Source of the DNA: Levilactobacillus wangkuiensis
GTDB lineage: Bacteria > Bacillota > Bacilli > Lactobacillales > Lactobacillaceae
DNA: 64,000 nucleotides
NCBI RefSeq assembly: GCF_016861605.1
Contig: NZ_BOLM01000010.1
Coordinates: 1 to 64,000 of the forward strand
Direction: 5' to 3'
Below, piece after piece: positions 22,301-62,812 of the stretch. The notes under the pieces were generated by a model. It saw only the letters and a program-made list of their open reading frames with translations, made no database searches and was not told the origin of the DNA. Both the position numbers and the translations under genes were made by a program. Within the stretch, counting starts at the first letter, position 1. Each line of letters begins with the position of its first letter.

Positions 22301-23265
22301 ACGACCTTGATACTGTTCAGGTACCCAAATGCGTAGTTCCCAATCGACGTGATGCCGTCCCCAATCACCAAGCCCGTGATGTTCTTCGTTAGGTCTGGTT
22401 GGTTGTAGAAGGCACCATCCCCAATAGCCGTGACGTTGTAGGTCTTACCGCCATTGGTTACAGTCGTTGGAATCACAACTGTGCCCGATAGCACCTGGTT
22501 ATTCAGCGTCAGCAGTGTCGCCGTCCCAGTGTCATCATCATAGCCAAACAGAAAATTGCTTTGATCCGTCGCTGGTAAGGCTACCCGCGCCATTTGGGTC
22601 GCTGAAAAACTGACCGCGGATACTGGTTGAACTGGTGTGTCGCCGGACTGGTCAGATTTTTGATTACTATTCGTGGCATCGTTGTCTGACCCAGTCCCTG
22701 AAACCGACTGGTCATTCGATTTTTCTTGATTGCTTTCGTCAGAAGTTGGTGTCTCCGTTTCAGTCCCGGTCCCAGTTGATCCCTCACCGGTATCCTTTGG
22801 GGATTGCTGACCATTTTCCGTATTAGTGGGCGTGGTTTCTTCATTTGAAGTCGACTGATCATCATCCTGGCTACCGGTTTTACCGTTTTCCTGTCCAGCA
22901 CCACTTGCCGATTCGCTGCCAGTAGTGTCGCCATTGTCCACTGACGACTCCGTTTCAGTCCCGGTCCCAGCACCCGCTTCGGCGCCATTTTCGCTTGCAT
23001 CATCGTTCTCCGTAACCGTACCCGCCACGGCAGCGCTTGCATTTTCAGCGTCGCTCGTTGGATTGGCAATAGGCACGACCTTATCCGTCAAACTCCCCGT
23101 ACCTGAACTCTGTTGACTCACGCTGTCCCCGCTAGTCGTGTCGGTGTCCGCATGAGCTGTCTCTTGTCCAACCAGGGTTCCCAGGCCGACCGCCACGACC
23201 GTAATCGCTGCGAAGACCCAGTGCTTGCCATCCTTGTACATCTTGTAATGTTGTTTTGTTTGCAT
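19387..23265 (-). CDS. LPXTG cell-wall-anchored BspA-type leucine-rich-repeat protein (1292 aa)
   Basis: A 1292-residue surface protein. It has a KxYKxGKxW-type signal (HYKMYKDGKHW, residues 6-16, cleaved near AHA) and a Ser/Thr/Asp/Gly/Gln-rich linker to about 215. About 20 BspA-like LRR_5 units (IGDxAFxxxxxLTxLxLPxxLxxIG) run over roughly 235-700. MBG/Ig-like modules lie at about 770-1115, then a DPTDPTDP proline-rich wall span, LPQTN at 1260-1264, a membrane helix and RKRRHE. It is probably exported and attached by sortase for adhesion or interaction. LPQTN has Asn where sortase A sites normally have Gly. AGAGGGG precedes the ATG. It is a paralogue of the next gene. Confidence 0.9.
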   Translation of the reverse strand: MQTKQHYKMYKDGKHWVFAAITVVAVGLGTLVGQETAHADTDTTSGDSVSQQSSGTGSLTDKVVPIANPTSDAENASAAVAGTVTENDDASENGAEAGAGTGTETESSVDNGDTTGSESASGAGQENGKTGSQDDDQSTSNEETTPTNTENGQQSPKDTGEGSTGTGTETETPTSDESNQEKSNDQSVSGTGSDNDATNSNQKSDQSGDTPVQPVSAVSFSATQMARVALPATDQSNFLFGYDDDTGTATLLTLNNQVLSGTVVIPTTVTNGGKTYNVTAIGDGAFYNQPDLTKNITGLVIGDGITSIGNYAFGYLNSIKVVDLSENHTLTNIGEGAFLSSSITDLVLPATVKTIGTSAFEYNTQLANVDFSQATQLESIGDLAFAGDESLTSLNIPTLTTMGTAAFAGTTSLKSLTLGDGVLQIGDNAFSSYQSGDVSFDPDTALTSVDFGNGLQTIGNYAFTYDGGITTLNLPASLTSIGDYAFGAMTTKDATGSTAGGLTTVNFADCSQLTTIGNSAFIYDTVLANITLPASLETIGDQAFLANSSLKSIKLPASLVTIGANAFTYDSKLTSVDTSEATALTTIKSGAFEYAGLTGNLTLPPALTTIGDLAFAGNRLESLTVNANLTTIGTSAFTYNALGGQLDLSNPVLTTIGKQAFFGNQLAGVQVATSTKVGANAFDYNRLTSLTAAGDMAILAQNQTATIFTSKAKLNSIDDLFDVAVGDLKNTDLTLTKLSNGVTYSNGKFTIPDSVENFTFAWTLTDSTGATYTGNYQVVLNDPKIQVANSTVWYGDGWQPTDNVVSAVMTDGTPIEADKLGIAITDAKGNTVQPDQVTQNAGVYNVTYSYEGVDSATAQVTVIKREASYSLSGNATVTYTGQAPVFDASQYTLTLSDGFVYTLKSGDLIVTPSGETSTSKFNGKTSALTAASLPNVGTYQVSLDPDAIARVQAEAPASDYYDWTDNGTDATLTIVAAPLTVNVASATKEAGTADPTPVFTVTDSKGDAMTTSGLQVTRVPGETAGDYAYLLDTSQLDANYTAANVTLGKLTINPVAATLTGSDYTMQVNGTAPTLADFKAAATDTNALPVADSELTLDMGDADTTKVGDYTVTLHYGDLTKTVTLHVVAPTTGGGGGTTDPGNGGDPDITDPTDPTDPTDPVKPVDPAKPTDPDDVHKVISDQGVHKKGAGATLNVQARKSAQKTLSRYNGGVGAAITGDPVTGTLHHGGDGALIMPTTTKIAKKSATQPVVAPVTKATLPQTNEAPTTWWAALGVLLGGLGLAGLRKRRHE

Positions 23266-24053
23266 CGTTGTTTACCCCTCTCACCGTTGGAGTCCCTTGT
23301 CCCCCAAAGCCTGTCTATCAACAACTAAATGACCGGCTAGTTAATCTCTTACTTAGCATATTAGCGCCTCAATCAATGAGTGCAACTAAACCCCACTTGT
23401 GAAATCAAGTTAGGCTCTAAGCCTTACCAAGTCACTAATCATTTTCCTCAACTTTATAAATCCCTAACGACTGTTCATTTGAAACTTATTTCGACGCAAT
23501 AGTCCCTAACCCCATGATTGAAAGGCCTCACTCACGGGTAAACAAGCCGCCACTTAGGCTCCTAGTTAGCGCTCTTGGCTTGCAACTAATCGTTGTGTAA
23601 ATACAGCTTAATTTTAGGACATTGTGTCTACTTTTTGCTTTGTTATATGGCGTTACTATAGCATATTATTAAATGAAATAATAGTCTTGAGTCGCATTGT
23701 ATCAGTATTTTTGTTGACTATTAAAATTCAATTAATCTGTTCTTTCACTAAAATATGATTTGCACATTATTCTTTCTCTGGCCAGCTGTTTCAAATTCTC
23801 TTTGCCCTTAGTTCATGCCTGAAACGGTTCTCGCCTAAACTATCGCCTATCCCTTGATAAATCAATCTTTATAATTCTGGCTATCAAAATCATCGACGGC
23901 GTCATCTCTTTACCTACTTAAATTTCCCGACATGATTGTTCAAAATGACAAATCAATGTGAACAACCAAACAAAATTAGAAAATCAGGAGGCGCCAGTGG
24001 AACCTGTCACTTTTTCAATCAAGAAGAATCGGCAACTTGCCTGACAGTGAACG
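23266..24053. other. A+T-rich intergenic region upstream of the first LRR protein
   Basis: No convincing gene. It holds the minus-strand promoter at 23358-23385 and then several hundred A+T-rich bases with no repeat-family element. A 61-codon open frame at 23936-24121 runs into the neighbouring terminator and lacks a ribosome binding site. The length and richness in A+T suggest regulatory DNA for a highly expressed wall protein (inference). Confidence 0.6.
23358..23385 (-). promoter_or_regulatory. Candidate promoter of the 1292-aa surface protein
   Basis: On the minus strand TTGCAC (23380-23385) and TAATAT (23358-23363) with a 16-base spacer, about 95 bp before the ATG. Confidence 0.5.
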
Positions 24054-24114
24054 CAAAAACGCCCCATCAGAGAATTCAGCGGTTAATCTGGCTGAGTTTC
24101 TCTGATGAGGCGTT
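24054..24114 (-). terminator. Terminator of the 1471-aa surface protein gene
   Basis: Minus-strand long hairpin AACGCCTCATCAGAGA / TCTCTGATGGGGCGTT, followed by a short run of T. A CAGC/GCTG inner pairing extends it. It lies 30 bp after the stop. Confidence 0.88.
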
Positions 24115-24143
24115 GCTTTAAATTTAGCATCTTCTAACGTGGT

Positions 24144-27100
24144 TTAGTCATGACGCTTTCGTTGCCAACCGACCAGGCTCAATCCACCTAGTAGGGTGCC
24201 TAACAAGGCCCACCATGGGGTTTGCGCGTCGCCCGTCTGCGGCAGTTTAGTAGCTGCCAGTTGGTCAGTGGTTGACGTTGCGGTCGTGCCTTGGTTCCGC
24301 TTGGTAGTTTCTGGCGCGGTTGCCATGGTTGCCTTAGCTAACCGTTTCGCTGCAGTCTGGTGACTAGCCGTTGGCGTTTCGTCTGCCATTTGAACCATGG
24401 CAGCTGCCCCACCGGATTTCACCAAGAACTGTTGCACATCGTGTTCTCCAGACGTCCCAGCGGAGACATTTTCATGTGCCCCCGATTCGCTGACAATATA
24501 CTGAGCACCACTCTGACCAGGGATCGGCTTTGCTGGCATCACAGGTGTCGTTGGCGTTACTGGTTTTGTCGGCTTTGCTGGTTTCGTCGGCTTTACCGGC
24601 GTGGTTGGTTTAACCGGCTTCGTCGGTGTGGTTGGCTCAGTCGTCGTACCGCCATTGCCTGTGTCCGGGTCAGTCTGATTGCCAGAATTGCCGGTATCGC
24701 CGCCGGTTGCGGCTGCATTAACGTGTAAAGTGACTAGGAATGTCTTTCCACCATAGCTGAGCGTAACTTCATAATCGCCGGCCTTGGTGAGGTCAGCCTT
24801 ACTCAAATCCACGGCAATTTTATCAGCCGACACGGCTTGGGCATTTTCATCCGTCCCCGTGGCACCGAAGTCTGCGGCCGTTGGCATCGCATCCCCCACC
24901 GTCATGGTGTATTCCTTACCAGACACCGTGACTGGTGCCGCTACAATTTTTAACGTTGCCGGCAGGTAGGTGACGTCAAAGTTAGACGCAGATACCGCGT
25001 CAGTGCCTTGAACAGATGGCACGTATTTATATACTCCAACAGTCTCACCCAGTTCCCGAGTATAGCCAATGGTCAAGGGAAAGTTGGTCAGCGGCGTTTG
25101 CGTTTCGTCATCGTCGGCTGTCACTACAAATGTTAGTGCTGGATCAACGGTTCCGGCAACCTTAGTTAACTGCGTAGTGCCGTCAATCTGATCACCTTTA
25201 ACAGCTACGGTTACCTTGGCTGGCGTGATGGTCAACGTTGCCTCTGAAGGATTTTCCGTCCAGGCAAAAAGATCTGTTGCATCTGCCTCACCCATTACCC
25301 GCTGGATAGCCTCTGCCTTTAGAATAACTTTGTACTTTCCAACATTGGGTGCAGTGCTTGCACTTGTATTTTCTGCTGAATCAGTTAGCGTTCCGTCTGG
25401 AACAATTTCTACATCATCGTCCTTGATGGCGTAGATTAGGCCATCAGGCATATCAATTTGAAAACTGCTTCCTATCAATATTGGTGTTGCCCCCGTATAC
25501 TGAACGGTTTGATTGCCTTCCAACGTGAACGAGGCTGTCCGTTTGACAACGGTTAAGGTAATTGTTTGGGCATCGCTACCGCCATCACTATACGTCACCT
25601 TATACACACCAGGTGTTTGCGTCACCTTGTCGGCATCTACAGTGTCTCCCTCACTATTCGTAATGGAAACATCCAAGTCCCCAAGTGCCATATTCGTTCC
25701 ATCCGGCTTCACTGCACTCATAAAGTTATCCGCTGGCGTCCAGTTATCTTTGTACCAAGCCTGACCGTCTACGACCTTAATGTCTGGGTCATTCAAAACG
25801 ACTTGATAGGCGCCGGCATAAATATTGGTGCCATTTGTGCCCGGCAAGGACCAGTTGAATTTAAAACCAGCCGTCCCCTTGGGAACAGTGAACGTCCCAT
25901 CCGTTTGATTATAGGTGACCCCATTTGTAATCGACGACACTACTAAATTCTTGTTCGTTAAATTACCAACATGTGTATCAAACAACGTATCGATGGTCAC
26001 ATCCGCAGACTTGCCAAAGTAAGCGGCATACTGATTTTGAGCAATATGCGTGCTATTCGTACTGGCTGTCAGTTTCGTAATCCGGTTGTAGTCAAACGCG
26101 CTGTCGCCAACTTTCGCCGTTAACGGCACCTTGACATCTTGTATTTGATTCCCATAGAAGGCTTTCGCCCCCACAATTGTCACTGAATTTGGCAAATTGA
26201 GGCTGCCATCCAGCTCATTGTAGCTAAATGCATTGTTGCCAATTGTCTGAAGGCCATCATTAAAGCTGACTTCCTTGATATGACTTCCGGCAAACGCATA
26301 GTTCCCAATCTTCTGTGTGTTGGTTGGCATCACAAAAATTGGATTGCCATCGGCGTCCGTTTGACCAGAGTCTGTGATCCCAGAATACTCAAAAGCCCCA
26401 TCACCAATTTCTTCAAGCTGGTTTGCCTTACTAGTGTCTACCGTCTTGAGCCCATCATCATAGGTAAAAGCGTTATTGCCAATACTTTGGAGACTCGCTG
26501 GCAAGGTGAAACTCTTCAGCGCCGAATTGGCTAAGAAGGCTTGCGCACCAATCGTCGTCACGCTATCTGGCAAAGTAATATCTTCCAAAACCGTGTCATA
26601 AACAAACGCACTGTCGCCCACAGTTGTCAGTCGACTGTCATCGGCAAAGGTCACCGTTTTCAGCCCACCAATCGTGTTTCCAGTGGCATCCTTTAAATTG
26701 TCCGCAGCAAAGGCTTCCTTACCAATCTTCACCAAGTTCGCTGGCAAATTCAGGTTCACAATATGCCCGTCATAAGCAAACGCGTCATCCCCAATAATGA
26801 GGTCGTCGTTCGCTGTCTGACCGTCAAACGTGATGTCAGCCAGATTTGTGTTTGACTCAAAGGCTGCGGTCCCAATCGAAGTCAGCGTCGCTGGGAAGTG
26901 CACAGCCGTTAACCCGGTCCCATAAAAGGCGCTGGCATCAATGGTGGTTAACTGACTGTCGCTCGGAATGTTCAGCGTTGTTAAATTCTTATCGCCATTA
27001 AATGCCGACTCCCCAATTTCTGTCACGTTAGAACCCAAGGTTACCGTGGTCAAATCTTGGTTATTCTCAAAGGCCCCGGCCCCAATCGTCACACCATTAA

Positions 27101-28559
27101 GGTTGAGACTAGTAATCTTAGCGCCGGCAAACGCACTTTGCCCAATGCTAGCTAAATTTGGTGCCACGGAAAGGTCCACATCTGCAAGCTGACCATCATT
27201 GGCAAAAGCAGAATCCCCAATCTTGGTCAAACTTTGCGAGAGCTTTACACTTGTCAAATTACTGTTGTACTGAAAAGCTTTATCACCAATAGTCGTTACG
27301 CTGTCAGGCAAGACTAAGGAATCAATTTTGCTGCCCAAGAAGGCTTCGCTGCCAATCGTTTGTAGCTGCGTGGCTTGGCTTAAATCAAGTGCCGTCAAGT
27401 TATCATACGTAAACGCACTGTCGCCAATACTAGTCACTGTCTCCGGTAACGTTAAGGACGTCACACCAGTACCAACAAACGCCCGATCACCAATCGTTTC
27501 CAAAGAGTGATTTTCACTAAGATCAACCACCTGCAGATTTTTCAGGTAAGCAAATGCATTAGTCCCAATACTCTTGATACCATCACTAATCACAACGGTT
27601 GACACATTAGCCGTCCGTCCTGTGCTGCTGGCAAAGGCGCCACTGGCAATGGCAGTAACGGCATAAGTCTGCTTATTCTCCGCATTAACCGTGGTCCCAG
27701 GAATCGTCAGTGTGGCCGAATTAACCACACTGGCAACCCCATCCAGGGTCGCAGTTCCATCGTCATTGTAGGTGTACACAAAACTCGCATCAGTCGTTGG
27801 CACCTCGGCTGAAAGATTCATGGCCTTCAGCATCCCAAATTTACCAGCTGGTATTTGCAGTAATGAACCTGCTAGATCAGATACCTTAGCGTCTTCTAAA
27901 TCGTTGACGTCCAATACGTCTTGCTTGATTTGGTCGACATCAGTTTCCTTCTTATCTGAACCGGATGCCTGGTCGTCAGTCGTCTGGTTTGATTGCGCGT
28001 TAGTCACCGTGCTTCCGTCAGACTTTTCACTAACACCATTCTGGGCTGATTCGTCCGCAACTACCTTGGTGTCAGACGTTTCCTTGGCCGCTACCAGTGA
28101 ATCGGTATCGGTCGTTTGCTTATCTGCATCTGAATTTGCATCTTTACTTGTATCTGAATTTGAATCTGAATCTTTACCTGTAGCTGAATCTACCCCAGTA
28201 CCAGCATCTGAGCCTGACTCATCTGCAGTTTCAGTCTCGTTTGTCGTCTCTTTAGTCCCCTGATCAGAGCTGGCCGCATCGGTGTCTTTCTCACCAGTCG
28301 TCTCAGTTCCCTGTGGCAACTCGTTCTCTACTGAACTCTCTTTAGCCGCCCCACTGGTCTTCAAAATTGTGGTCGTTCCGGTCGTCGTTTGCGTTCCGGT
28401 TGCCGTTTGACTACTGTCCGCCCCTGTCGAGGCCGTCTCGGCGTGGGCCACTGTGCCTTGACCAATCATGGTTCCTAGTCCCATGGCAGCAACGGTCACA
28501 GCTGCGACAACCCAATGTTTCCCATCCTTGTACATCTTGTAATGTTTTTTCTCTTGCAC
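24144..28559 (-). CDS. LPXTG cell-wall-anchored BspA-type leucine-rich-repeat protein (1471 aa)
   Basis: A 1471-residue paralogue of the preceding protein. The signal (HYKMYKDGKHWV) is nearly identical, followed by an acidic Ser/Thr/Asp linker to about 230. LRR_5 repeats run over about 265-875 (units such as LPDSVTTIGDKAFQYNSNLT). Ig/MBG-like modules follow at about 910-1290, then a TPVKPTKPAKPTKP wall-spanning region and a canonical LPQTG at 1439-1443. A membrane helix and QRKRHD end it. The start is a GTG with AAGAGGAG upstream. The repeat array is longer than in the neighbour. It may act in adhesion or aggregation; ligands are unknown. Confidence 0.92.
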   Translation of the reverse strand: MQEKKHYKMYKDGKHWVVAAVTVAAMGLGTMIGQGTVAHAETASTGADSSQTATGTQTTTGTTTILKTSGAAKESSVENELPQGTETTGEKDTDAASSDQGTKETTNETETADESGSDAGTGVDSATGKDSDSNSDTSKDANSDADKQTTDTDSLVAAKETSDTKVVADESAQNGVSEKSDGSTVTNAQSNQTTDDQASGSDKKETDVDQIKQDVLDVNDLEDAKVSDLAGSLLQIPAGKFGMLKAMNLSAEVPTTDASFVYTYNDDGTATLDGVASVVNSATLTIPGTTVNAENKQTYAVTAIASGAFASSTGRTANVSTVVISDGIKSIGTNAFAYLKNLQVVDLSENHSLETIGDRAFVGTGVTSLTLPETVTSIGDSAFTYDNLTALDLSQATQLQTIGSEAFLGSKIDSLVLPDSVTTIGDKAFQYNSNLTSVKLSQSLTKIGDSAFANDGQLADVDLSVAPNLASIGQSAFAGAKITSLNLNGVTIGAGAFENNQDLTTVTLGSNVTEIGESAFNGDKNLTTLNIPSDSQLTTIDASAFYGTGLTAVHFPATLTSIGTAAFESNTNLADITFDGQTANDDLIIGDDAFAYDGHIVNLNLPANLVKIGKEAFAADNLKDATGNTIGGLKTVTFADDSRLTTVGDSAFVYDTVLEDITLPDSVTTIGAQAFLANSALKSFTLPASLQSIGNNAFTYDDGLKTVDTSKANQLEEIGDGAFEYSGITDSGQTDADGNPIFVMPTNTQKIGNYAFAGSHIKEVSFNDGLQTIGNNAFSYNELDGSLNLPNSVTIVGAKAFYGNQIQDVKVPLTAKVGDSAFDYNRITKLTASTNSTHIAQNQYAAYFGKSADVTIDTLFDTHVGNLTNKNLVVSSITNGVTYNQTDGTFTVPKGTAGFKFNWSLPGTNGTNIYAGAYQVVLNDPDIKVVDGQAWYKDNWTPADNFMSAVKPDGTNMALGDLDVSITNSEGDTVDADKVTQTPGVYKVTYSDGGSDAQTITLTVVKRTASFTLEGNQTVQYTGATPILIGSSFQIDMPDGLIYAIKDDDVEIVPDGTLTDSAENTSASTAPNVGKYKVILKAEAIQRVMGEADATDLFAWTENPSEATLTITPAKVTVAVKGDQIDGTTQLTKVAGTVDPALTFVVTADDDETQTPLTNFPLTIGYTRELGETVGVYKYVPSVQGTDAVSASNFDVTYLPATLKIVAAPVTVSGKEYTMTVGDAMPTAADFGATGTDENAQAVSADKIAVDLSKADLTKAGDYEVTLSYGGKTFLVTLHVNAAATGGDTGNSGNQTDPDTGNGGTTTEPTTPTKPVKPTTPVKPTKPAKPTKPVTPTTPVMPAKPIPGQSGAQYIVSESGAHENVSAGTSGEHDVQQFLVKSGGAAAMVQMADETPTASHQTAAKRLAKATMATAPETTKRNQGTTATSTTDQLAATKLPQTGDAQTPWWALLGTLLGGLSLVGWQRKRHD

Positions 28560-29951: not shown

Positions 29952-30138
29952 CCGCCTCCGGCTTCTAGGAACTCCGCCTGCTGTGGGGAACGCTTCCAGC
30001 CTGAGAAACGGTCTTCCAGCTCGCCTTTAAGCCTGGAAAACCACCAGTCTCAAAGGTCGTCCCGTGGACTAAGCTGAGAAAATTCACTCAGCTAACACCA
30101 TCGACACAGCTGGCTACGTTTCTGGCCTCCTGCGGCTA
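29952..30138 (+). repeat. Structured intergenic repeat, type B, copy B1
   Basis: Begins CGCCTCCGG and ends CCTGCGGCT like the type A shell, but carries the B core: GCCTGAG-AA-CGGTC loop, CGCCTTT/AAAGGTCG stem and AGCTGAG/CTCAGCT hairpin. In that last stem the terminal G-C pair of other copies is replaced by A-T, a compensatory change. It is in a head-to-head arrangement with B2. Confidence 0.8.
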
Positions 30139-30254: not shown

Positions 30255-30450
30255 TACGGTCAGTATCAGTGACCAGAGGCGGGTCAAGATGGCCAGCTGC
30301 GTCGGTGGTCTTAGCTGGGGTTCTTTCCCAGCCTAGCCTACGGGACAACCTTTGTGACCGCTTATCAGGCACAAAGTTGAGGTGGAAGCCCGCTCCTCGG
30401 CTGGAACCGACCCCATAGCAGGCCGGCTTGAGCCCGCCGCCGGGAACGGT
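30255..30450 (-). repeat. Structured intergenic repeat, type B, copy B2
   Basis: Reverse-oriented copy, closest to B3 (shared GTTCCCGGCGGCGGG start, GGCTGGG/CCCAGC hairpin, ACCGACGCAGCTGG, GCCTCTGGTCACTGA end). It lacks the outer shell seen in B3 and B4. It lies about 50 bp downstream of the ccpA terminator. Confidence 0.85.
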
Positions 30451-34223: not shown

Positions 34224-34497
34224 CGCCTCCGGGAGGTTGAAAATTGAGCCGTGACGCTGTGGCGGGTCTGTCCGTTCCCGGCGGCGGGTTCAAAACGCCC
34301 TGCTATGGGGCCGGTTCCAGCCAAAGAGCGGGCTTCCACCTCAACTTTGCGCCTGAGAAACGGTCGCAAAGGTTGTCCCGTGGGCTAGGCTGGGAAATAA
34401 CCCCAGCCAAGACCACCGACACAGCTGGGCATTTTGACCCACCTCTGGTCACTAACACTGACCGGTCCGACTCATTTTTACCCACCTCGGGCGATTA
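34224..34497 (+). repeat. Structured intergenic repeat, composite, copy B3
   Basis: A type B core (GTTCCCGGCGGCGGG to CTCTGGTCACTAA) enclosed by a type A-like outer shell: CGCCTCCGGGAGG, TTGAAAATTGAG on the left and CTCATTTTTACCCACC on the right. The inner hairpin is GGCTGGG/CCCAGCC where B4-B6 have GGCTGAG/CTCAGCC, a paired substitution. The shell is partly degraded. Confidence 0.82.
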
Positions 34498-34726
34498 ACA
34501 CTGTATTAACAACTAACCCTAATTGATTCACTAACTCATCAGCTATGCTTCAATTGCTGTCATTAACCAATGGCTGACCAACCAAATCGGACAACTAATC
34601 AGTTTCTTTTACATTATGTAAACTGGTGTTTACTCAATACTCCTCACTAATGAGTATCCTGTTCAACTATAACCAGTTAGCAACCAACACCACAAGAAAT
34701 TTATTGACGGGCTAAATCCGTGTCAA

Positions 34727-34899
34727 CCGCAGGGCTGGTGAAAATAGGCTCAGCCGTGGGAGTTGCCTTAGCGGTTTACCGCTTAGGCAACTGATATCTT
34801 TGAGACATGGTCTTCGGCTCAAAGTAAGCGCGGAGACCGCCCTTTGGCTCCGGGCGTTCGCCCACAGCGTCACGGCCTATTTTCACCAGCCCGGAGGCG
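34727..34899 (-). repeat. Structured intergenic repeat, type A, copy A1
   Basis: Outer stem GGTGAAAATAGGC / GCCTATTTTCACC. P2 stem CGGAG/CTCCG with GCCAAAG-GG-CGGTC loop, P3 TACTTTGAG/CTCAAAGATA, P4 TTGCCTAAGCGGT/ACCGCTAAGGCAA with the A-A mismatch shared by A5-A8. It lies directly upstream of the mscS ribosome binding site. Confidence 0.88.
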
Positions 34900-34959
34900 A
34901 TGTCAGGACCACGTTTAACCCGTAAAATCAAAAAATTATTGAAAAGGAGGGCTCGTCTC

Positions 34960-39862: not shown

Positions 39863-40134
39863 GCACCTCCGGGTCGGTGAAAACTGAGCCGTGACGCTGT
39901 CGGTTGTCCGTTCCCGCCGGCGGGTTCAAAATGCCCTGCTATGGGGCCGGTTCCAGCCTGAGAACCGGGCTTCCGCCTCAACTTTGCGCCTGAAACCCGG
40001 TCGCAAAGGTTGTCCCGTGGACTAGGCTGAGCAAAAACCTCAGCCAAGACCACCGACACAGCTGGGCATTTTGACCCGCCTCTGGTCACTCACACTGGCC
40101 AGCTCGGCTCATTTTCACCAGTCCTGCGGCTGAC
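39863..40134 (+). repeat. Structured intergenic repeat, composite, copy B4
   Basis: The clearest composite. The outer shell CACCTCCGGGTCGGTGAAAA-TGAGCC pairs with GGCTCA-TTTTCACC and ends CCTGCGGCTGAC. Inside lies a complete type B core (GTTCCC start, CAACTTTGCG/CGCAAAGGTTG P3, GGCTGAG/CTCAGCC P4, CACCGACACAGCTGG). In P3 the base of the stem is CAA/TTG where others have CG/CG or TA/TA. Confidence 0.88.
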
Positions 40135-40361
40135 ACGGCGTTCCCCGTATCAAACGGCTCATCAATCAATTGGTTGGCACTTACTTGTCTGACTCATTAG
40201 CTAATGGTTAGTTTCTACTCACGCAACTATGCAATGGTCGCCTAACCAAAAATCCCCCAGTAAGCAATTTACTGAGAGACTTTAATCACAAACAATTTAA
40301 TACACACAACCCACACACGCCTCGGTGATGGCTCCACCGTTGGGCTCTCACGCCATGTAAG

Positions 40362-40541
40362 CCGTGAGGGCGGGGAAAATAAGTTCAGCCGTGGGAATTT
40401 CCTTAACAGCTTTTTTTGCTGTTAAGGAAATTGGCGTCTTTGAGACTCGGGTTTTGAGGCTCAAAGCGAGGTTAAAGACCGCTTCTCAGGCTTTGACCGT
40501 CCTTCCCTCGCGTTCCGACTTATTTTCCCCGCCCGGTAAGG
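40362..40541 (-). repeat. Structured intergenic repeat, type A, copy A2
   Basis: Outer stem GGGCGGGGAAAATAAGT / ACTTATTTTCCCCGCCC, a version of the shell changed on both arms. P4 is a perfect AATTTCCTTAACAGC/GCTGTTAAGGAAATT hairpin and P2 is GGT-AAAG/CTTT-ACC. It starts 12 bp after the mutS2 stop, reading in the same direction. Confidence 0.85.
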
Positions 40542-40553
40542 CCCTGAAAAAGA

Positions 40554-42917
40554 CTACTTAAACCGCACAACCGTCGACCCGTCACCACCGGCGTTGGCTG
40601 GGGAGAAGCCGAAGCTCTTGATGCGGTTATTCCGCTTCAAGTACTCGGTGACCCCTTTCCGCAAGGCCCCGGTGCCCTTTCCGTGAATGATCGTCACAGA
40701 TGGGTAACCCGCTAGCAAGGCGGAATCAATGTACCGGTCAACTTCGGCCATGGCCTCTTCATAACGGTGACCGCGGAGATCCAAGGTTGGCGACATGCCG
40801 CTGGAGCCACTGCGTTTCACACTAGCCCGCGGTTGTTTGGCCGACTTGGCTGGGTCCTTGGCCTTTTCCAGGTCGTTGGTGGCAATCTTCATTTTCAAGA
40901 TTCCCAGTTGGACTTCCCAGTGGCTGTCATCCAGTTGCTGCATCAGGACCCCGATTTGACCGTAGGACTTGACCAGCACGCTGTCACCCTTGTGGAAGTC
41001 GAGCTTGGCCTTTTCCCGCCGCAGGACTCGGTTCTTCTTGAGCTTGGTATCCTGTTGCAGGGCGTTCAAGGCGCCTTGAGCCGCAATCAGCTCGTCTTCC
41101 TTAACGACGCTCTGACCGGCAGCCAACTGCTTCTTCCGCAAATCAGAAATGATTTGGTTGGCCCGCTTCCGGGACTCATCGACCAGCCGGTTGGCGTCGC
41201 GCTTGGCGTCCGTCATCAACTGATCCTTCTGATGTTGATAGCTGTCAAATTGCTTTTGTAATTGATCGTGTAAGTCATCGGCTTCGGCCAATTGGGTCCG
41301 TAAACTCTCGGCATCATCGTCGACCCGCCGCTTTTGTTCGGTCAGGTCGGAAATCATGGCGTTCAAGTCTTGACTGTCTTGGTCGGTCAACCCCCGAGCC
41401 GCGTCAATCACCTGTGACGGCATCCCCAGCCGGGCCGCAATGTCTAAGGCATTACTTCGTCCAGGAATCCCAATCAACAGCTTGTACGTTGGTTGGAGCG
41501 TTTCGCCGTTGAACTCCATGCTGGCGTTAATCGTATCTGGCCGGTTGTACCCGTAAGCCTTCAGCTCAGGATAGTGGGTCGACGCCATGACATAGCTACC
41601 TAGCGTCCCGATTTCGTCCAAAATAGCGATGGCCAGTGCGGCCCCTTCTTGGGGATCGGTGCCGGCACCCAGTTCATCGACCACGATTAAGCTGTGGTCG
41701 TCGGCCTGTTTCAGGATGGCTACGATATTTTCCATGTGCCCGGAGAACGTACTCAGACTTTGCTCGATGGATTGTTCATCCCCGATGTCCGCAAAAATAT
41801 CGTTGAAGATACCAATCACACTGTTTTCATTAGCGGGAATAAACAAGCCCGACTGCCCCATTAATTGGACCAGTGCCAACGTCTTCAGCGTGATGGTCTT
41901 CCCACCAGTGTTGGGCCCGGTCACGATGATGGCCTTGTAGTCCTTACCGATGGTGATGTCGTTGGCTACGACCTTCCGCTGATCAATCAGTGGGTGGCGT
42001 GCCTGCCGCAAGCTGACCTGATTATCCAGGGACAGCTTGGGTTCAGTAGCCTTCAAATGATGGGCGTACTTGGCCTTGGCATTGATGAAATCAAAGTGCC
42101 CCAGAATTTCTGAGTTCCGTAAAATTTCATCCTGGTACGGATCAAGTAAAGCCGTCAATTCGGCTAAAATGCGTTGTTCCTCGTGACGTTCATCCATTTG
42201 ATTTTGTCGTAACCGGTTGTTCAAGCCCACAACTGCTTGGGGTTCAATGAACAGCGTTTGGCCACTGGCACTTTGATCATGCACGATTCCACCAAAGTGT
42301 TGCTTGTAAGCGGCCTGAACGGGAATTACGTAACGGTCATCCCGAATGGTCACGATAGTTTCACTCAGATATTTGGCATCCTTGCCCCGGGTGTATTGGT
42401 CCATGGTCCGGCGGATTTCCGCCTCGGTCTGAGTGATGTGCTGGCGAATCTGCTTCAAGGCGGGTGAGGCTTCATCCGTGATGTGGCCGTCGCCCTCTAG
42501 TGAAGTCCGCAATCGCCGTGTCACATCGGGTAACGTGACCAGTTCCTTCACAACTCGGTCGAGCCGACGTAAATCGACTTCCTTTTCAGCTAAGTCATGG
42601 AAAAATTTGACCACGGTTCCGGTCGTCCATAAGACCCGACTGATTTGAGCCAATTCCAACCCGTTCAGGGCAGCCTCCATGGCTAACCGGTGTAAATGCG
42701 GCCGGATATCATCCAGCTTGGGCAGTGGAATCCCACTCTCCAAGCGGTAGATGTCGGCACCGTCTCTGGTTTCGTCCAACCAGGTCTGCAGTTGTTTGGC
42801 ATCCGCGGTTGGGGCCAGCTGACTCAGCTCATGCTGACCAGCTGCCGAGACCAAGTAAGTGCGTAAGGCTTGCTTGATTCGGTCGTACTCCATAATTTTC
42901 AATGTTTTTTGATTCAT
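40554..42917 (-). CDS. mutS2: MutS2 (endonuclease MutS2 / ribosome-collision rescue factor)
   Basis: A 787-residue protein. A MutS-like core and clamp (about 1-310) is followed by an ATPase with Walker A GPNTGGKTIT (about 335), VDELGAGTDPQEGAAL and STHYPELK. A coiled coil follows (about 510-640), a KOW-like segment, and a C-terminal Smr nuclease domain with LDLRGHRYEEA and HGKGTGAL. Unlike MutS it does not do mismatch repair. It suppresses homologous recombination and, in Bacillus, acts on collided ribosomes. It is downstream of zapA-cvpA with a 27-bp gap. Confidence 0.95.
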   Translation of the reverse strand: MNQKTLKIMEYDRIKQALRTYLVSAAGQHELSQLAPTADAKQLQTWLDETRDGADIYRLESGIPLPKLDDIRPHLHRLAMEAALNGLELAQISRVLWTTGTVVKFFHDLAEKEVDLRRLDRVVKELVTLPDVTRRLRTSLEGDGHITDEASPALKQIRQHITQTEAEIRRTMDQYTRGKDAKYLSETIVTIRDDRYVIPVQAAYKQHFGGIVHDQSASGQTLFIEPQAVVGLNNRLRQNQMDERHEEQRILAELTALLDPYQDEILRNSEILGHFDFINAKAKYAHHLKATEPKLSLDNQVSLRQARHPLIDQRKVVANDITIGKDYKAIIVTGPNTGGKTITLKTLALVQLMGQSGLFIPANENSVIGIFNDIFADIGDEQSIEQSLSTFSGHMENIVAILKQADDHSLIVVDELGAGTDPQEGAALAIAILDEIGTLGSYVMASTHYPELKAYGYNRPDTINASMEFNGETLQPTYKLLIGIPGRSNALDIAARLGMPSQVIDAARGLTDQDSQDLNAMISDLTEQKRRVDDDAESLRTQLAEADDLHDQLQKQFDSYQHQKDQLMTDAKRDANRLVDESRKRANQIISDLRKKQLAAGQSVVKEDELIAAQGALNALQQDTKLKKNRVLRREKAKLDFHKGDSVLVKSYGQIGVLMQQLDDSHWEVQLGILKMKIATNDLEKAKDPAKSAKQPRASVKRSGSSGMSPTLDLRGHRYEEAMAEVDRYIDSALLAGYPSVTIIHGKGTGALRKGVTEYLKRNNRIKSFGFSPANAGGDGSTVVRFK

Positions 42918-48310: not shown

Positions 48311-48485
48311 CGCCTACCGGACCGCCAAAATGAACCGGAACGCGGTGGGCAGGACATCCAGAGCCACAGAACGGTCTCTGAACTCGCTTTGAACCGCCAA
48401 AGGCCGCGTTTCAAAGTCGCCATTTAGAGCCCGTGCCGTGCCCTAAATCCCACGGCTGAGTTCATTTTGGCCGTCCTCTCGGCTT
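48311..48485 (+). repeat. Structured intergenic repeat, type A, copy A3
   Basis: Outer stem CCGCCAAAATGAAC / GTTCATTTTGG with GGAC/GTCC below it, so the usual GGTGAAAA shell is changed on both arms. P3 is CGCTTTGAA/TTTCAAAGTCG and P4 is ATTTAG-GC/GCCCTAAAT-type. It lies 45 bp upstream of the alaS promoter. Confidence 0.85.
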
Positions 48486-48593
48486 AGACTGGTTTGGGGC
48501 GTTCCCGTCTGAACTTACTCGCAGTGTGTTTAAACTTGTTGACGGGTTGTGCCGAATCCGGCTTCCCTTGATTGGCAGTATCTTTGCTGACGG

Positions 48594-48869
48594 GCTTGGC
48601 TTACTGCGTTAATCTTTCTCTCGCCAAACTATCCAGAAACTTGCGGCCTCTGAAACGTGTCACTGTCGGGCAACTGGTTCCGCTTAGAAAAATAAGACGC
48701 TCCTGTCCGGCATAGGCGTTTTACCGATTGCATTGGCTTACTGCGTTAAACCTGCTCTCGCCATTTTATCCGAAAACTTGCGGCCTCTGAAACGTGCTAC
48801 ACAGGGCAGGTCCCTGCGCTTAGCAAAAAGAGAGCTCCAAGCCGGCTCTGCCGACTTGAAACTCTCTTC
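48594..48869 (-). repeat. Tandem duplicated terminator unit downstream of cshB
   Basis: Two units spaced 138 bp apart (conserved cores 48597-48660 and 48735-48796) share TTGGCTTACTGCGTTAA, CTCTCGCCA, AACTTGCGGCCTCTGAAA and CGTG, then GCTTAG and A-rich DNA. On the minus strand each is a terminator-like hairpin with a T-run followed by the conserved core. The first hairpin met by cshB transcripts (48825-48869) is strong: AAGAGAG-CAAGTCGGC / GCCGGCTTG-CTCTCTT then TTT. The second (48693-48721) is weaker. Confidence 0.75.
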
Positions 48870-51344: not shown

Positions 51345-51521
51345 CGCCTCCGGGGTGGGAAAAACTGGACCGGAACGCGGTGGGCAGGACGTCCAGAGCC
51401 AAAGAGCGGTCTCTGAACTCGCTTTGAACCTCTGAGAAACGAGTTTCAAAGTCGCCATTTCTTAAGGGTTCCCCTTAAGAAATCCCACGGCTGAGTCCAT
51501 TTTTCCCACCCCTGCGGCTGA
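51345..51521 (+). repeat. Structured intergenic repeat, type A, copy A4
   Basis: Outer stem GGGAAAAACTGGAC / GTCCATTTTTCCC, P2 CAGAG/CTCTG with the GCCAAAG-AG-CGGTC loop, P3 CGCTTTGAA/TTTCAAAGTCG, P4 ATTTCTTAAGGG/CCCTTAAGAAAT, closing CCCACGGCTGAG and CCTGCGGCTGA. It lies between the dinB stop and the nrnA start. Confidence 0.9.
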
Positions 51522-51641: not shown

Positions 51642-52748
51642 CTAATCATCGCCACCAAACAGTGGTAACTTGACGTTTTCAAAAGTTTGCGCGGCTAGTC
51701 CAGTTAACGTGATGCCCAGCAAGCGGACCTGCTCGTCATCCCCGGCCACGCTGTGGTAGAGATCCAGAGCTAAGTCGTAATAGACGCTGGCATCGTTGGC
51801 AATGAAGTCCGTTTGGGTCACGCGCTTCGTGATGGTGTTGAACTCGCTGTCCCGTAGCTTGAGAACTAGCGTCTTGCCGTGCCGTTGCTTTTGCTTGACC
51901 GTTGCCGCGACCATTTCTGCCAGCCGTTGTAGTTGCGTTTCCACCTCGCCGACCGACGACAACGGTGGCCCGTACGTGCGCTCCTTGCCAATCGACTTGC
52001 GCTCACGCAAATACTCGACCGGCCGCTCATCAATGCCGCGTACCCGTTGATACAAAATGTAACCGAACTTGCCGAAGTCATGAATCAATTCCAACTGGGA
52101 TTTTTGATACAGATCCGCCCCGGTTTGAATGCCTAGCTCATGCATCTTGGGCACGGTCTTCTTGCCCACGCCCCGGTAGCGCTCAATCGGCAACGCCATC
52201 AAGAAGTCGTGCGCGTCCTCCGGCAGAATCACGCTCACCCCAACTGGCTTACGGAAGTCCGAGGCCTCCTTGGCTAGAAACTTACTATAGGAAATGCCGG
52301 TCGAACAGGTCAAATGGGTCTTATCAAAAATTTCCACCTGAATCTCGTGGGCCACCTGAACCGCCGAACGGATATGTTTCTTATTCTCCGTGATATCCAA
52401 ATAGGCTTCATCAAAAGCCACGGTCTCAATCTTATCCGTGTACTCATGAAAAATTTCGTGAATCTGATCGGAAATTTCGCGGTAATGGGGAAAGTCTGGC
52501 GTCTTAAAGGTGGCATGTGGGGCCAGCTTAAACGCCTCGTTGGCATTCATGGCGGAATGCACGCCTAGCTGCCGCGCCACGTAATTGGCCGTGGTCACGA
52601 CGCCGCGGCCGCCAGTCGTTCGGGGATCTCTGGCAATGATCAACGCGTGGCCCTTGAACTCGGGGTGGTCCCGTTCCTCAATCGACGCGTAAAACGCATC
52701 CATGTCGACGTGAATGATTTTTCTTTGCGTGTATTTTTCCGGGACCAC
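51642..52748 (-). CDS. dinB: DNA polymerase IV
   Basis: A 368-residue Y-family translesion polymerase. Metal-binding Asp residues are in [13 protein letters not shown] and [11 protein letters not shown]; the little finger domain begins near residue 240 (SIGKERTYG). The start is a GTG at 52748 with AAGGAGGGG 8 bases upstream; the open frame extends toward repeat A5 but that region is repeat, not protein. It lies between copies A4 and A5, so it forms its own transcription unit. Confidence 0.94.
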
Positions 52749-52790
52749 GGCCTTCCCCTCCTTTCCACGATTTTCCGGTTGTGCAGTCGT

Positions 52791-52980
52791 TGTCAGCGCC
52801 TCCGGGATGGTGAAAACTGCGCCGGGACGCGGTGGGCGACCGCCCGGAGCCAAAGTACGGTCTCCAGGCTTACTTTGAGCCGAAGCCCCGTCTCAAAGAT
52901 ATCAGTTACCTAAGCGGCCAACCCACCCGCTAAGGTAACTCCCACGGCTGAGCGCATTTTCACCATCCCTGCGGCTGACA
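52791..52980 (+). repeat. Structured intergenic repeat, type A, copy A5 (reference copy)
   Basis: A 190-bp element bounded by a perfect 7-bp inverted repeat, TGTCAGC...GCTGACA. In order: CGCCTCCGGG; outer stem P1 ATGGTGAAAACTGCGC / GCGCATTTTCACCAT; ACGCGGTGGG pairing with CCCACGGC; P2 CGGAG-GCCAAAG-TA-CGGTC-CTCC; P3 TACTTTGAG / CTCAAAGATA; P4 GTTACCTAAGCGG / CCGCTAAGGTAAC with a single A-A mismatch; CCTGCGG. The result is a cloverleaf-like fold. It begins 43 bp upstream of the dinB start, without coding capacity of its own. Confidence 0.9.
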
Positions 52981-53255
52981 CTGACTTAACCAATAGCATT
53001 TGCGCCATTAACAACACGCTGAACAAACATGGTGTGCCAACACGTTAACTGAATTGACTGTCGATCTACCAACTTCAACGACGTTTGCCAACCACATGTT
53101 TTACCGTTTATTAGTATATAAATTATACCCAAACAAACGTTTGTCTTCAATCAAAAGCCGTTATCTTTTTCCCGTAATTCTTCGGCTTTTACTCACCGTT
53201 AACCAAAATTTAGCCGAAAAAAAACGGCCTCTAGGAGACCGAACTTTTTGATGTC

Positions 53256-53705
53256 TTATTTAGCTGAGTCATCGTCAGTTTTTTCAACAGTTTCGTCACT
53301 TGCAGCGGCGTCACTTGCTGGTTCTTCAGTGGCATCTTCAGCGGGTTGATCCGCGCTGGCTGCTTCACTGGTTGCGTCGTTAGCGGCTGGGGCCGTAACG
53401 GCTTGTGGTGCTTGAGACGTTACTTGGGCAATGGCACGCAGGTCAAAGACCAAGTAGATCCCGTCGCAATCCAAGGTAACCGTTTGGTCAGCTTGGTTGA
53501 TTTCGTCGATCACACCGTGTAACCGGCCAATCGTGATGACGTGGTCGCCCTTTTTAAGTTCGCTCATCATGTCACGATGCTTCTTTTGTTGCTTTTGTTG
53601 TGGACGTAACATTAAGAAGTACATCAACCCCAAGAAGACAACTAAGATAATCAACGTTGAATAACCACCGGCGGCGCCAGCAGCGATATTTAAATTATCA
53701 AACAC
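53256..53705 (-). CDS. yajC: Preprotein translocase subunit YajC
   Basis: A 149-residue membrane protein of the SecDF-YajC accessory complex. One N-terminal helix (GYSTLIILVVFLGLMYFLMLR), then QQKQQKKHRDMMSELKKGDHVITIGRLHGVI with the usual basic and beta-rich domain. The last 50 residues are an Ala/Asp/Glu/Ser-rich acidic tail, making it longer than the usual 85-115. GGGG precedes the ATG. A sigma-A promoter lies upstream. Confidence 0.92.
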   Translation of the reverse strand: MFDNLNIAAGAAGGYSTLIILVVFLGLMYFLMLRPQQKQQKKHRDMMSELKKGDHVITIGRLHGVIDEINQADQTVTLDCDGIYLVFDLRAIAQVTSQAPQAVTAPAANDATSEAASADQPAEDATEEPASDAAASDETVEKTDDDSAK

Positions 53706-53740
53706 ATTTGTTCACCCCTTTATATTCTATCTATTGGACA

Positions 53741-53770
53741 ACTTTACCAGAATACGGGGAATCCGTCCAA
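53741..53770 (-). promoter_or_regulatory. yajC promoter
   Basis: On the minus strand TTGGAC (53765-53770) and TAAAGT (53741-53746), 18-base spacer, with a TGG extension before the -10. Confidence 0.6.
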
Positions 53771-53859
53771 TTATTTCTAGAAATTCTTTAGACGTTCGGT
53801 ATTGCCGCTTCCTTTCAGAAACGGCTTGTCACCGCGGACTGGCGCTATCAGTCAGTCGC

Positions 53860-54882
53860 TTAACCATTTTCCGGTTGTGGAAATTGCCGGCCGAGGTGTT
53901 CATACCCCGCTGGTGTGACGACCCGGCCCCGTGCCGTGCGCTTTAAATACCCGCGCTGCAGGAGATAGGGCTCGTACATGGCCGCGACAGTTTCCGTTTC
54001 CTCACCAACGTTGGCCGCCAGGGTATTCAACCCGACTGGCCCACCGTTGTAGTAATCGATCATGGTCTCCAACAACTTAATGTCGGTGGCGTCTAGCCCG
54101 GCCGAATCCACGCGCAATAATTTCAGCGCGTGGTTCACAATGGCCAGGTCAATCTCGGTATGATCAGGCGACACTTCCGCAAAGTCTCGAATCCGTTTCA
54201 ACAAGCGGTTCGCGATTCGGGGCGTGCCCCGCGAGCGTAACGCAATCTCGTGGGCGCCCTCAGTTGCGATGCGCGTGTTAAAAATGTCGGCTGACCGCGT
54301 CACAATTTCTTGGAGATCTTGCGTTTGGTAGTAGGCCATGTGCTCCACGATACCAAACCGGTCCCGCAACGGTGCGGATAACAAGCCGGCCCGGGTCGTG
54401 GCCCCAATCAACGTGAACGGTGGCAACGGAAAGTGCACCGGATGGGCGGTTGGCCCCTGTCCGACCACGATATCGATGTAGAAATCTTCCATCGCGGAGT
54501 AGAGCATTTCCTCAACAATTTTCGGTAGCCGGTGAATTTCATCAATGAAGAGAATATCCCCCGGTTGCAGTTCGTTGAGCAAGGCTACCAGGTCGCCCGG
54601 CTTTTCAATCGCTGGACCACTAGTCGTGCGGATGTGCACACCCATTTCGTTGGCAATCACCATCGCCAAGGTCGTCTTCCCTAAACCAGGTGGCCCGTAC
54701 AGCAGCACGTGGTCCAAGGATTCCTCCCGTTGCTTAGCCGCCTGAATATAGACGGACAATTCGTGTTTGATGGGATCCTGACCGATATACTGGGCCAGGG
54801 TTTGTGGTCGCAATGATTTTTCAATCGAATCTTCGTTGTCATCCGCTGGTTCCGGTGAAACGACACGTTCATCATCAGTCAT
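53860..54882 (-). CDS. ruvB: Holliday junction branch-migration helicase RuvB
   Basis: A 340-residue AAA+ motor that drives branch migration with Ruv[14 protein letters not shown], Walker [13 protein letters not shown] (about residue 63), Walker [11 protein letters not shown], sensor [17 protein letters not shown], and the C-terminal winged helix ([31 protein letters not shown]). AAAGGAGG precedes the ATG. It lies 21 bp after the ruvA stop. Confidence 0.97.
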
Positions 54883-54903
54883 GGGTCAGCCTCCTTTCAA
54901 AAA

Positions 54904-55564: not shown

Positions 55565-55787
55565 AAGTCGGGCCGACGCTTCCGTTCCCGGCGGCGGGCT
55601 CAAACTGCCCTGCGGTGGGGAACGGCTCCAGCCTGAGGAGCGGTCTGGGGCCTCGTCTTGAAACCTCGCTAAGGACCACGAGTTTCCAAGGCCGTCCCGT
55701 GCTCTAGGCTGAGAAAAATCACTCAGCCAAGACCACCGACACAGCTGGTCAGTTTGGCCCGCCTCTGGTCACTTATATTGGCCAAGA
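55565..55787 (+). repeat. Structured intergenic repeat, type B, copy B5
   Basis: GTTCCCGGCGGCGGGC pairing with GCCCTGCGGTGGGGAAC, GCCTGAG-GA-CGGTC loop, P3 TTGAAAC/GTTTCCAA-type, P4 GGCTGAG/CTCAGCC, CACCGACACAGCTGG and CCGCCTCTGGTCAC. It lies about 15-20 bp upstream of ruvA. Confidence 0.87.
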
Positions 55788-55962: not shown

Positions 55963-56213
55963 CAGCAATTACTGAGCGGTTAGCCGGAGACTGCCAACTT
56001 ACAGCATGGGCCATCTCGGCTTTAAACATATTTCATAGCAAAGCAAAAAGCAAACGCCAACCGAATAGATGGTCATTCTGGAGGCAGCTAAGGTTCACAC
56101 CTGTGTCGGGGACCTTAGTCGGCGTTTTCAGCCGGCTTAGGTCCCGGGACGACTTTGAGATTGCGCTCTTGGCAAGCTCAAAGCGAGACTGAAGACCGTT
56201 CTTTGGCTTCAGT
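55963..56213. repeat. Tandem duplication next to mutL, left unit (contains copy A7)
   Basis: 251-bp unit from CAGCAATTACTGAGCGG to GGCTTCAGTC, repeated downstream with many substitutions. It contains AAAGCAAAAAGCAAACGCC and CGAATAGATGGTCATTCTGG, which are identical in both units. The right part (from 56082) is a minus-oriented repeat-family element. Confidence 0.85.
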
Positions 56214-56216
56214 CTC
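56082..56216 (-). repeat. Structured intergenic repeat, type A, copy A7 (outer arm truncated)
   Basis: Minus-oriented. P2 GACTGAAG/CTTCAGTC with the GCCAAAG-AA-CGGTC loop, P3 CGCTTTGAG/CTCAAAGTCG, P4 GACCTAAGCCGGC/GCCGACTAAGGTC with the A-A mismatch. The outer 5' arm present in A8 is missing here. Confidence 0.82.
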
Positions 56217-56240
56217 GCTGCTAAATAACGTCCATCGCAT

Positions 56241-56517
56241 CAGCAATAACTGAACGGTTAGCCGGAGGTAGCCAACTTGCGCACCCTGCGTCGATGGTGT
56301 GCTTACAGCATGGGCCATCTTAGCTTCAAGCATGTTTAACGGCAAAGCAAAAAGCAAACGCCAACCGAATAGATGGTCATTCTGGAGGCAGCTGAGGCCC
56401 ATACCTGTGTCGGGGACCTTAGTCGGTGTTTTTTACCGGCTTAGGTCCCGGGACGACTTTGAGATTGCGCTTTTGGCAAGCTCAAAGCGAGACTGAAGAC
56501 CGCTCTTTGGCTTCAGT
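56241..56517. repeat. Tandem duplication next to mutL, right unit (contains most of copy A8)
   Basis: 277-bp second unit, CAGCAATAACTGAACGG to GGCTTCAGTC. It differs from the left unit by an insertion of about 26 bp (56279-56304, containing a GCACCC...GGTGTGC hairpin) and many point changes. Confidence 0.85.
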
Positions 56518-56551
56518 CGGTACCCACAGGTGTGGGCCTTAGCTGCCGGAA
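56383..56551 (-). repeat. Structured intergenic repeat, type A, copy A8
   Basis: Minus-oriented copy with the longest outer stem: 22-bp arms reading GCAGCT-AGGCCCA-ACCTGTG on the left and CACAGGT-TGGGCCT-AGCTGC on the right, two mismatches. P2-P4 match A7. It begins 14 bp after the mutL stop and could act as its 3' hairpin. Confidence 0.87.
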
Positions 56552-56565
56552 GAATTTAGGACCAC

Positions 56566-58595: not shown

Positions 58596-58823
58596 AAAAC
58601 AGGTGGTCTACCCCGTTCCCGGCGGCAGGCTCAACTCGCCCTGCTGTGGGGAACGGCTCCAGCCTGAGAAGCGGTCTGGATCCTCGCCTTGGAACCTCGC
58701 TGAAGTCCGCGAGTTTCCAAGGTCGTCCCGTGCTCTAGGCTGAGTGAAAAACCTCAGCCAAGACCACCGACACAGCTGGTCAAGTTGGCCCGCCTCTGGT
58801 CACTCACAGTGATCACCTGTTTT
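58596..58823 (+). repeat. Structured intergenic repeat, type B, copy B6
   Basis: Bounded by 13-bp inverted arms AAAACAGGTGGTC / GATCACCTGTTTT (one mismatch). Core: GTTCCC..GGCAGGC/GCCCTGC..GGGGAAC, CCAG-CCTGAGAAGCGGT-CTGG, CGCCTTGGAA/TTCCAAGGTCG, GGCTGAG/CTCAGCC, CACCGACACAGCTGG. On the minus strand the closing arm runs into TTTTTATTTATCC, so this copy could also terminate mutS transcripts. It separates mutS from mutL. Confidence 0.88.
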
Positions 58824-62625: not shown

Positions 62626-62812
62626 CGCACCTCCGGACTGGTGAAAATGGGATTGGAACGCGGTGGGCGGACGCCTGAAGCCTGAGGGGCGGTCTTCAGA
62701 CTTACTTTGAGCTGCCCAAACCGCATCTCAAAGATACCAATTATCTAAACGGCCAGCCGTTAAGATAATTCCCACGGCTGAACCCATTTTCACCAGTCCT
62801 GCGGTTAACGGC
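62626..62812 (+). repeat. Structured intergenic repeat, type A, copy A6
   Basis: Outer stem CTGGTGAAAATGGG / CCCATTTTCACCAG, P2 CTGAAG/CTTCAG with GCCTGAG-GG-CGGTC loop, P3 TACTTTGAG.. with CTCAAAGATA-type return, P4 TTATCTAAACGGC/GCCGTTAAGATAA with the same A-A mismatch as A5. It lies between rny and ymdB. Confidence 0.9.

Follow-up and report, generated by a model that had tools for sequence, protein, structure and literature searches.

Palindromic intergenic repeats present in many copies are familiar from the REP and BIME sequences, which occur with RAYT, a Y1 transposase. Mobile palindromes whose arms vary but stay paired are also known from fungal mitochondria, where they appear as mobile double-hairpin elements and GC clusters. 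In Streptococcus pneumoniae, BOX, RUP and SPRITE are described, in the excerpted account, as short dispersed repeats that hardly occur beyond a narrow clade, fold tightly and insert slowly at present; SPRITE repeats lie near gene 3' ends, and BOX and RUP have terminal repeats and target duplications (PMC3049150). For rRNA genes, the excerpted text of a further study reports that template-switch mutations create and maintain hairpins, extend their arms and give several compensatory changes at once (PMC8794818).

The locus analysed here lies in a 64,000-nucleotide stretch of Levilactobacillus wangkuiensis DNA (the window) and belongs, as one copy, to a large family of dispersed repeats. The Levilactobacillus repeat is non-coding, intergenic, present in many copies, folded and nearly confined to a narrow clade, as is the case for BOX-like repeats; in being short, dispersed, folded and clade-restricted it resembles BOX, RUP and SPRITE as far as the excerpt describes them. 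Unlike BOX and RUP as described there, it has a four-way cloverleaf, a gene-facing polarity and inverted gene ends, and no target duplication was seen. With REP and BIME it has in common that it is palindromic, intergenic and present in many copies, whereas it is longer, has a four-way fold and resides in a genome with no PF01797 match. From the fungal mitochondrial double-hairpins and GC clusters it would differ in size, fold, host and gene polarity. Template switching, which the excerpt describes for rRNA genes (PMC8794818), would here act around a repeat family and gene ends. The best-listed titles and abstracts of open-licence papers on such repeats do not describe this one, and in one L. 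brevis genome paper ‘repeat’ and ‘palindrom’ occur only within the CRISPR name.

The repeat, its copies and its distribution

The core of the repeat comprises an outer stem, P1, followed by P2, P3 and P4 on a four-way junction, with looser arms flanking the 52798-52976 core on the outside. Folded as RNA, positions 52781-52990 reach -100.8 kcal/mol against -68.1 (sd 4.8) for shuffled sequences (z -6.8); folded as DNA, they give a z of -6.2. The paired P1 arms quoted in an earlier sequence-only reading of the locus are present in the type-A copies at 34725 (-), 40360 (-), 51346, 52798 and 62629. The same reading described an A-A mismatch in P4 as kept in five copies. It is plain in three of the six type-A copies of the window (34725, 52798, 62629); at 40360 and 51346 the stem has no mismatch at that position, and a total of five could be reached only by counting other types.

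Searched against its own genome, a 190-base query gave 47 matches (270 first-look candidates, 40 scored). A covariance model built from 30 copies then matched all 150 candidates scored out of 1,888, and the true copy number is therefore probably higher. The window, a stretch not selected for copies, holds 14 (Table 1), which extrapolates roughly to ~690 copies in 3.14 Mb if they are evenly spread. Across 457,659 bases, comprising the window and 20 stretches picked for many type-A copies, we counted 201 copies (type A, 98; type B, 103). Type B has the same core motifs as type A with different arms, and some copies are chimeras in which a type-B core sits within type-A arms. None of the 201 lies inside a called ORF, an absence caused in part by the gene calling, which took long ORFs as genes and dropped shorter ORFs covering a copy. 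Copies occupy 118 of the 245 intergenic regions of at least 60 nt, in stretches mostly picked for copies, and copy-bearing intervals are longer even without the cores (median 352 versus 197 nt).

Table 1 Copies of the repeat in the window, and the outer arms of the copy at 52798
Feature	Position	Strand	Score or basis
Type-B repeat	29954..30137	+	R2 143.2 bits
Type-B repeat	30271..30444	-	R2 174.2 bits
Type-B core (34277-34450) in type-A arms; plain type A in G043	34226..34493	+	R2 188.6 bits (core)
Type-A copy, 5' side towards ORF at 34900	34725..34898	-	R1 204.7 bits
Type-B core (39913-40087) in type-A arms	39865..40131	+	R1 47.5 bits, R2 188.8 bits
Type-A copy beside stop codon of ORF 40554-42917(-); core replaced in G020	40360..40542	-	R1 114.8 bits
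Type-A copy, mostly deleted in G020	48312..48484	+	R1 105.3 bits
Type-A copy	51346..51519	+	R1 138.3 bits
Type-A cloverleaf repeat of the sequence-only reading	52798..52976	+	CM R1 183.1 bits; folds
Outer arms beyond core of 52798 copy, with TTAACC-like end	52771..53000	+	Fold; alignment of 29 copies
Type-B repeat	55587..55770	+	R2 170.1 bits
Third variant, weaker match	56076..56248	-	R2 69.8 bits
Third variant	56380..56553	-	R2 122.4 bits
Type-B repeat	58618..58801	+	R2 172.3 bits
Type-A copy; in G043 an extra copy gene-side, 5' half of old copy missing	62629..62806	+	R1 156.6 bits

Other repeats were also seen in the window. Both third-variant copies are contained in a direct repeat (55998-56214 / 56302-56518, 92% alike) of which the two closest species, G043 and G020, show one unit; by position, it sits between ORFs that we take to be ruvA and mutL. 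A duplication with 137 bp spacing (48583-48659 / 48720-48796) is shared with G043, whereas G020 shows one unit where it aligns. Two very long minus-strand ORFs at 19387-28559 (1292 and 1471 aa) share repeats and are perhaps surface proteins. At 53240-54890, ORFs that we take to be yajC-like and ruvB-like are adjacent, and they lie ~3 kb apart in several genus members (G003, G040, G047).

With 79 candidates scored per genome, the covariance model matches 33 of the 35 Levilactobacillus genomes examined, counting the own one. Outside the genus, 97 other genomes sampled from its taxonomic order gave a single, weak match, in a member of the same family (for most of them 28 candidates were scored). 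A blastn search with one type-A query matches 14 of 39 relatives, 14 of the 23 within the genus and none of the 16 outside, and 72,556 plasmid and 50,697 phage records give no match to that query. Named loci of Levilactobacillus cerevisiae, L. mulengensis and L. lanxiensis carry the type-A motif among the matches listed. In another genus of the family (G129, L189-L194), two copies were read of a shorter relative of ~140 nt with a similar P3 hairpin, CTTTGAGCC..GGTCTCAAAG; judged by eye, the P3 hairpin and a P4 motif of the family recur in them.

Covariation and constraint of the stems

In the 30-copy alignment, 99.1% of cells across the stem pairs are paired. Two-sided changes occur in 15 of the 59 pairs against 6.0 (sd 1.2) in shuffles, none of 500 shuffles reaching 15, and sliding the partners by one to three columns leaves at most three such pairs. 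Covariation with phylogeny accounted for, the check that the sequence-only reading had proposed, was carried out on 99 type-A copies of the same genome with a purpose-written script (12 simulated alignments) in place of R-scape; the alignment was made without structure, and the null preserves the FastTree tree and how many changes each column has undergone. At E<0.05, 14 of the 59 stem pairs covary; of the 16 column pairs that are significant overall, 14 fall within the fold and two outside it. Parsimony on the tree gives 314 changes from one Watson-Crick pair to another in type A, together with 88 single changes from Watson-Crick pairs to A-C, 44 to G-U and 55 to other mismatches, counts that are descriptive only because copies may exchange sequence. 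Covariation within the fold fits structured RNA or single-stranded DNA, of either strand.

Whether single copies keep their stems is seen in orthologues. The window was compared with G043 and G020 in collinear stretches of 85-96% identity, which gave 19 copy comparisons at 12 sites, several sites counting twice as two species are set against the window. With stems defined by the computed fold of the own copy, 159 of 2370 stem positions (6.7%) and 116 of 963 unpaired positions (12.0%) have changed; with the other species' copy folded, the counts are 168/2361 and 107/972. Stem change is below unpaired change in 15 of the 19, whichever copy is folded. Summed over the 19 comparisons, the flanks at 25-120 nt show 397/3429 changes (11.6%), a figure that may overstate flank change as these alignments are ungapped-unfriendly. 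The stems have changed less than unpaired bases and flanks and are therefore moderately held; stems of single copies are thus constrained to some degree. Taken with the covariation, this bears out the view that the repeats are held as a folded cloverleaf across the family. The constraint could equally be read as selection on an RNA of the opposite strand.

Four comparisons with more than 13% stem change, which we read as replaced cores, account for 107 changes in 491 stem positions and for 31 of the 34 double changes. The other 15 comparisons have 52/1879 changes in stems, 72/767 in unpaired bases and 317/2725 in flanks, a split that is circular, being made on stem divergence itself. Restriction to comparisons with unpaired divergence of at most 15% leaves, with the own fold (13 comparisons), 33/1648 stem changes, 47/647 unpaired changes and 3 double changes, and with the other fold (16 comparisons) 83/1991 stem changes and 13 double against 46 single changes. 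Exchange between diverged copies thus brings paired differences along, and the argument that simple copying would not produce paired substitutions is not supported.

Arm-to-arm conversion was rejected as the keeper of the stems. Unbiased correction between the arms would double a change as often as it would revert one and so, we reason, cannot lower the number of changed stem positions. The lower stem change in orthologues would be left unexplained, which disfavours the possibility, raised in the sequence-only reading against its own claim, that the arms match only via conversion within each palindrome.

Polarity towards genes and turnover in place

An ORF is present on both sides of 190 of the 201 copies, and in 165 of these the 5' side of the repeat is the one nearer to a gene (80/94 of type A, 85/96 of type B). 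Within 60 nt of a gene we find 79 5' sides and two 3' sides. Whether the gene presents its start or its end matters little, the 5' side facing the gene in 84 of 99 cases at starts and 81 of 91 at ends. Of the 25 exceptions, the majority lie well inside an interval, are fragments or overlap a called ORF. None of the 54 intervals with several copies contains an outward-facing pair (no ‘<’ left of ‘>’), nor do 11 further such intervals in G003 and G050, where the polarity recurs in 35 of 39 and five of five copies, respectively. Between tandem gene pairs, copies are sense in 63 cases and antisense in 56, and an orientation tied to transcription was rejected on this ground.

The 3' flank of copies beside stop codons often resembles the inverted gene end, at times with the stop codon included. 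The inverted 3' flank was scored against the last 33 bases of the gene for full copies lying 4-45 nt from a stop codon (n=46). Its mean score is 14.7, compared with 11.0 for mismatched partners (p=3.7e-10); the score exceeds the 95% level of the null in 41% and the 99% level in 26%. A direct-orientation control shows no difference (10.5 versus 10.5, p=0.36), and the gene-end copies of G003 and G050 taken together do not reach significance (n=8, p=0.10). Short inverted ends like GGGTTAAAC / GTTTAACCC are found in many of 29 type-A copies and run on into gene-specific inverted sequence. More generally, the nearest 40-nt flanks pair above the 95% level of same-type mismatched pairs in 56% of 167 full copies, a signal that in type B is partly that of the surrounding type-A arms. 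Once masking of the copies is extended 28 nt past the core, the 99% level is exceeded by only 4.9% of flank pairs (n=163), and the palindrome extension is therefore short. The best masked matches are mostly in register and within ~80-90 nt, and as the longest of those in register stop by about 50-90 nt, a long inverted duplication of gene ends was rejected.

Most sites and orientations are common to the window species, G043 and G020, and turnover is seen within them. Cores have been swapped between these close species at 34278, 34726 and 52798, inner deletions occur near 43.85 kb in the own genome and near 48.3 kb in G020, and a third-variant copy has been lost or gained near 56 kb. At 62630, G043 has an extra copy on the gene side, an old copy without its 5' half and, behind it, an imperfect inverted gene-side flank; the site fits renewal by fold-back copying, with an inverted flank that is only partly identical. 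Loss of the 5' part is the rule among fragments (25 of 33, of which three are cut only by the end of a stretch and three are 3' arms of chimeras). Sixteen fragments lie within 400 nt of a full copy, separated from it by more than 20 nt; all of these have the orientation of that copy, and 14 are on its 3' side.

These observations bear on whether a transposase mobilises the repeat as a MITE-like element. In that case the fold would be needed for transposition, so that only multiplying lineages keep paired stems, and the orientation would reflect the choice of a T-rich target strand. The many dispersed copies, the short inverted ends of many type-A copies, the nested look of type-B cores inside type-A arms, and a + strand that is T-rich for ~75-100 nt on both sides of copies would all be accounted for. 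However, base skew is weak at element-free gene borders, for which reason a T-rich target strand was rejected as the full cause of the polarity, and inverted gene ends are not expected of such an element. Nor was a clean empty site found among the 14 window sites in comparison with G043 and G020, where place and orientation are kept, and the one type-A query has no blastn match in plasmid or phage records. A search for the Y1 transposase (PF01797), the sole transposase family searched, gave no match in the own genome (G000), and a RAYT system was rejected on that result; Y1 is present in 23 of 35 genomes of the genus, two of them without a match to the repeat model (79 candidates scored in each). 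We regard transposase-driven movement as somewhat unlikely.

Strand of the fold and proposed renewal of the copies

Read in the reported direction, the stem mismatches of type A comprise 127 A-C and 57 G-U cells, with A-C:G-U ratios of 50:22 at gene starts, 61:21 at gene ends and 16:14 in copies without context. Type B shows 144 G-U against 96 A-C, a count dominated by one pair that is G-T in 80 of 90 rows and without which the numbers are 64 and 96, nearer to even than in type A, in an alignment fitted to the model. In orthologues the ratio is 34:14 or 25:24 by reference, the asymmetry vanishing when the other species' copy is folded. Rfam gives no match in the window at gathering scores and none at E<=5 in 52700-53060. 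Given the type-A excess of A-C over G-U and the lack of an Rfam match, an RNA in the reported direction is not supported and was rejected. The excess looks as though folding took place on the opposite strand, and points to a DNA fold of one polarity or to an element-tied mutation bias, short of proof.

Selection, copy by copy, on an RNA element that is co-transcribed within 5' leaders and 3' trailers and acts as attenuator, stabiliser, processing site or terminator is a doubtful, indeed unlikely, explanation of the same data. It would agree with the constraint on orthologous stems, with the adjacency of copies to coding sequence and with the terminator-like site found after 13 of the 52 copies that end up to 45 nt from a gene end (4/99 controls), and as RNA the opposite strand is slightly the more stable one (70/99 copies of type A, 66/90 of type B). 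Yet leaders carry the reverse strand and trailers the forward strand, and their A-C:G-U ratios agree, contrary to what selection on host transcripts would give; the orientation mirrors the gene and not its transcription, as the tandem pairs show, and Rfam offers no match. The element also appears to be without a promoter of its own. Promoter scores reading into it are not above control in the nearest 130 nt, where copies at gene ends score higher in the outward direction. Between 20 and 200 nt there is a weak excess, confined to copies at gene starts, which fits the gene's own promoter.

Purely mutational palindromes, in which template switching or conversion matches the arms without selection, would agree with palindromes that run on into gene ends and with such mutations as the excerpt describes for rRNA genes (PMC8794818), but are very improbable given that stems change less than loops, which unbiased correction cannot bring about, that, replaced copies apart, double changes are scarce (by reference, 3 among 37 or 13 among 59 single plus double changes, leaving out those passing through or starting from G-U), and that many unpaired bases are invariant among 30 copies.

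We class the repeat among the small dispersed structured repeats of bacteria, as a new family of unusual polarity that is probably renewed in place by strand-polar fold-back copying of DNA, a mechanism that we infer. More specifically, we tentatively suggest that the fold that is kept is one of DNA, as a single strand or a cruciform, and not of a host RNA, and that copies are renewed by strand-polar copying. The family extends across Levilactobacillus and consists of non-coding repeats of about 175-230 bp able to fold as a four-way-junction cloverleaf.

Sequence footprints suggest template switching. A new strand would leave a gene and copy another family member from its 5' side; the growing strand would fold back at the outer arms and copy a little of its own just-made flank, giving an inverted gene end; and it would rejoin further out, inside the old copy, which would thereby lose its 5' part. 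Directional copying of this kind is the simplest shared cause that we can propose. It would explain the inverted ends, the outward remnants and the swaps in place, though not the first orientation at each gene side.

The wider proposition, that a transposase-free folded DNA element persists, renews itself and spreads by strand-polar fold-back copying at gene borders, we consider unlikely. If true, inverted copies of gene ends would be written into intergenic space, lengthening and remodelling many intergenic regions genus-wide. If our reading is right, each genome would be a natural system with very many replicates, and one could measure for every copy whether its compensatory changes stem from selection, conversion or template switching. 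Levilactobacillus would then also show how a single polar repeat shapes many of the intergenic regions of a genus, and leaders, trailers and the evolution of these genomes may be affected.
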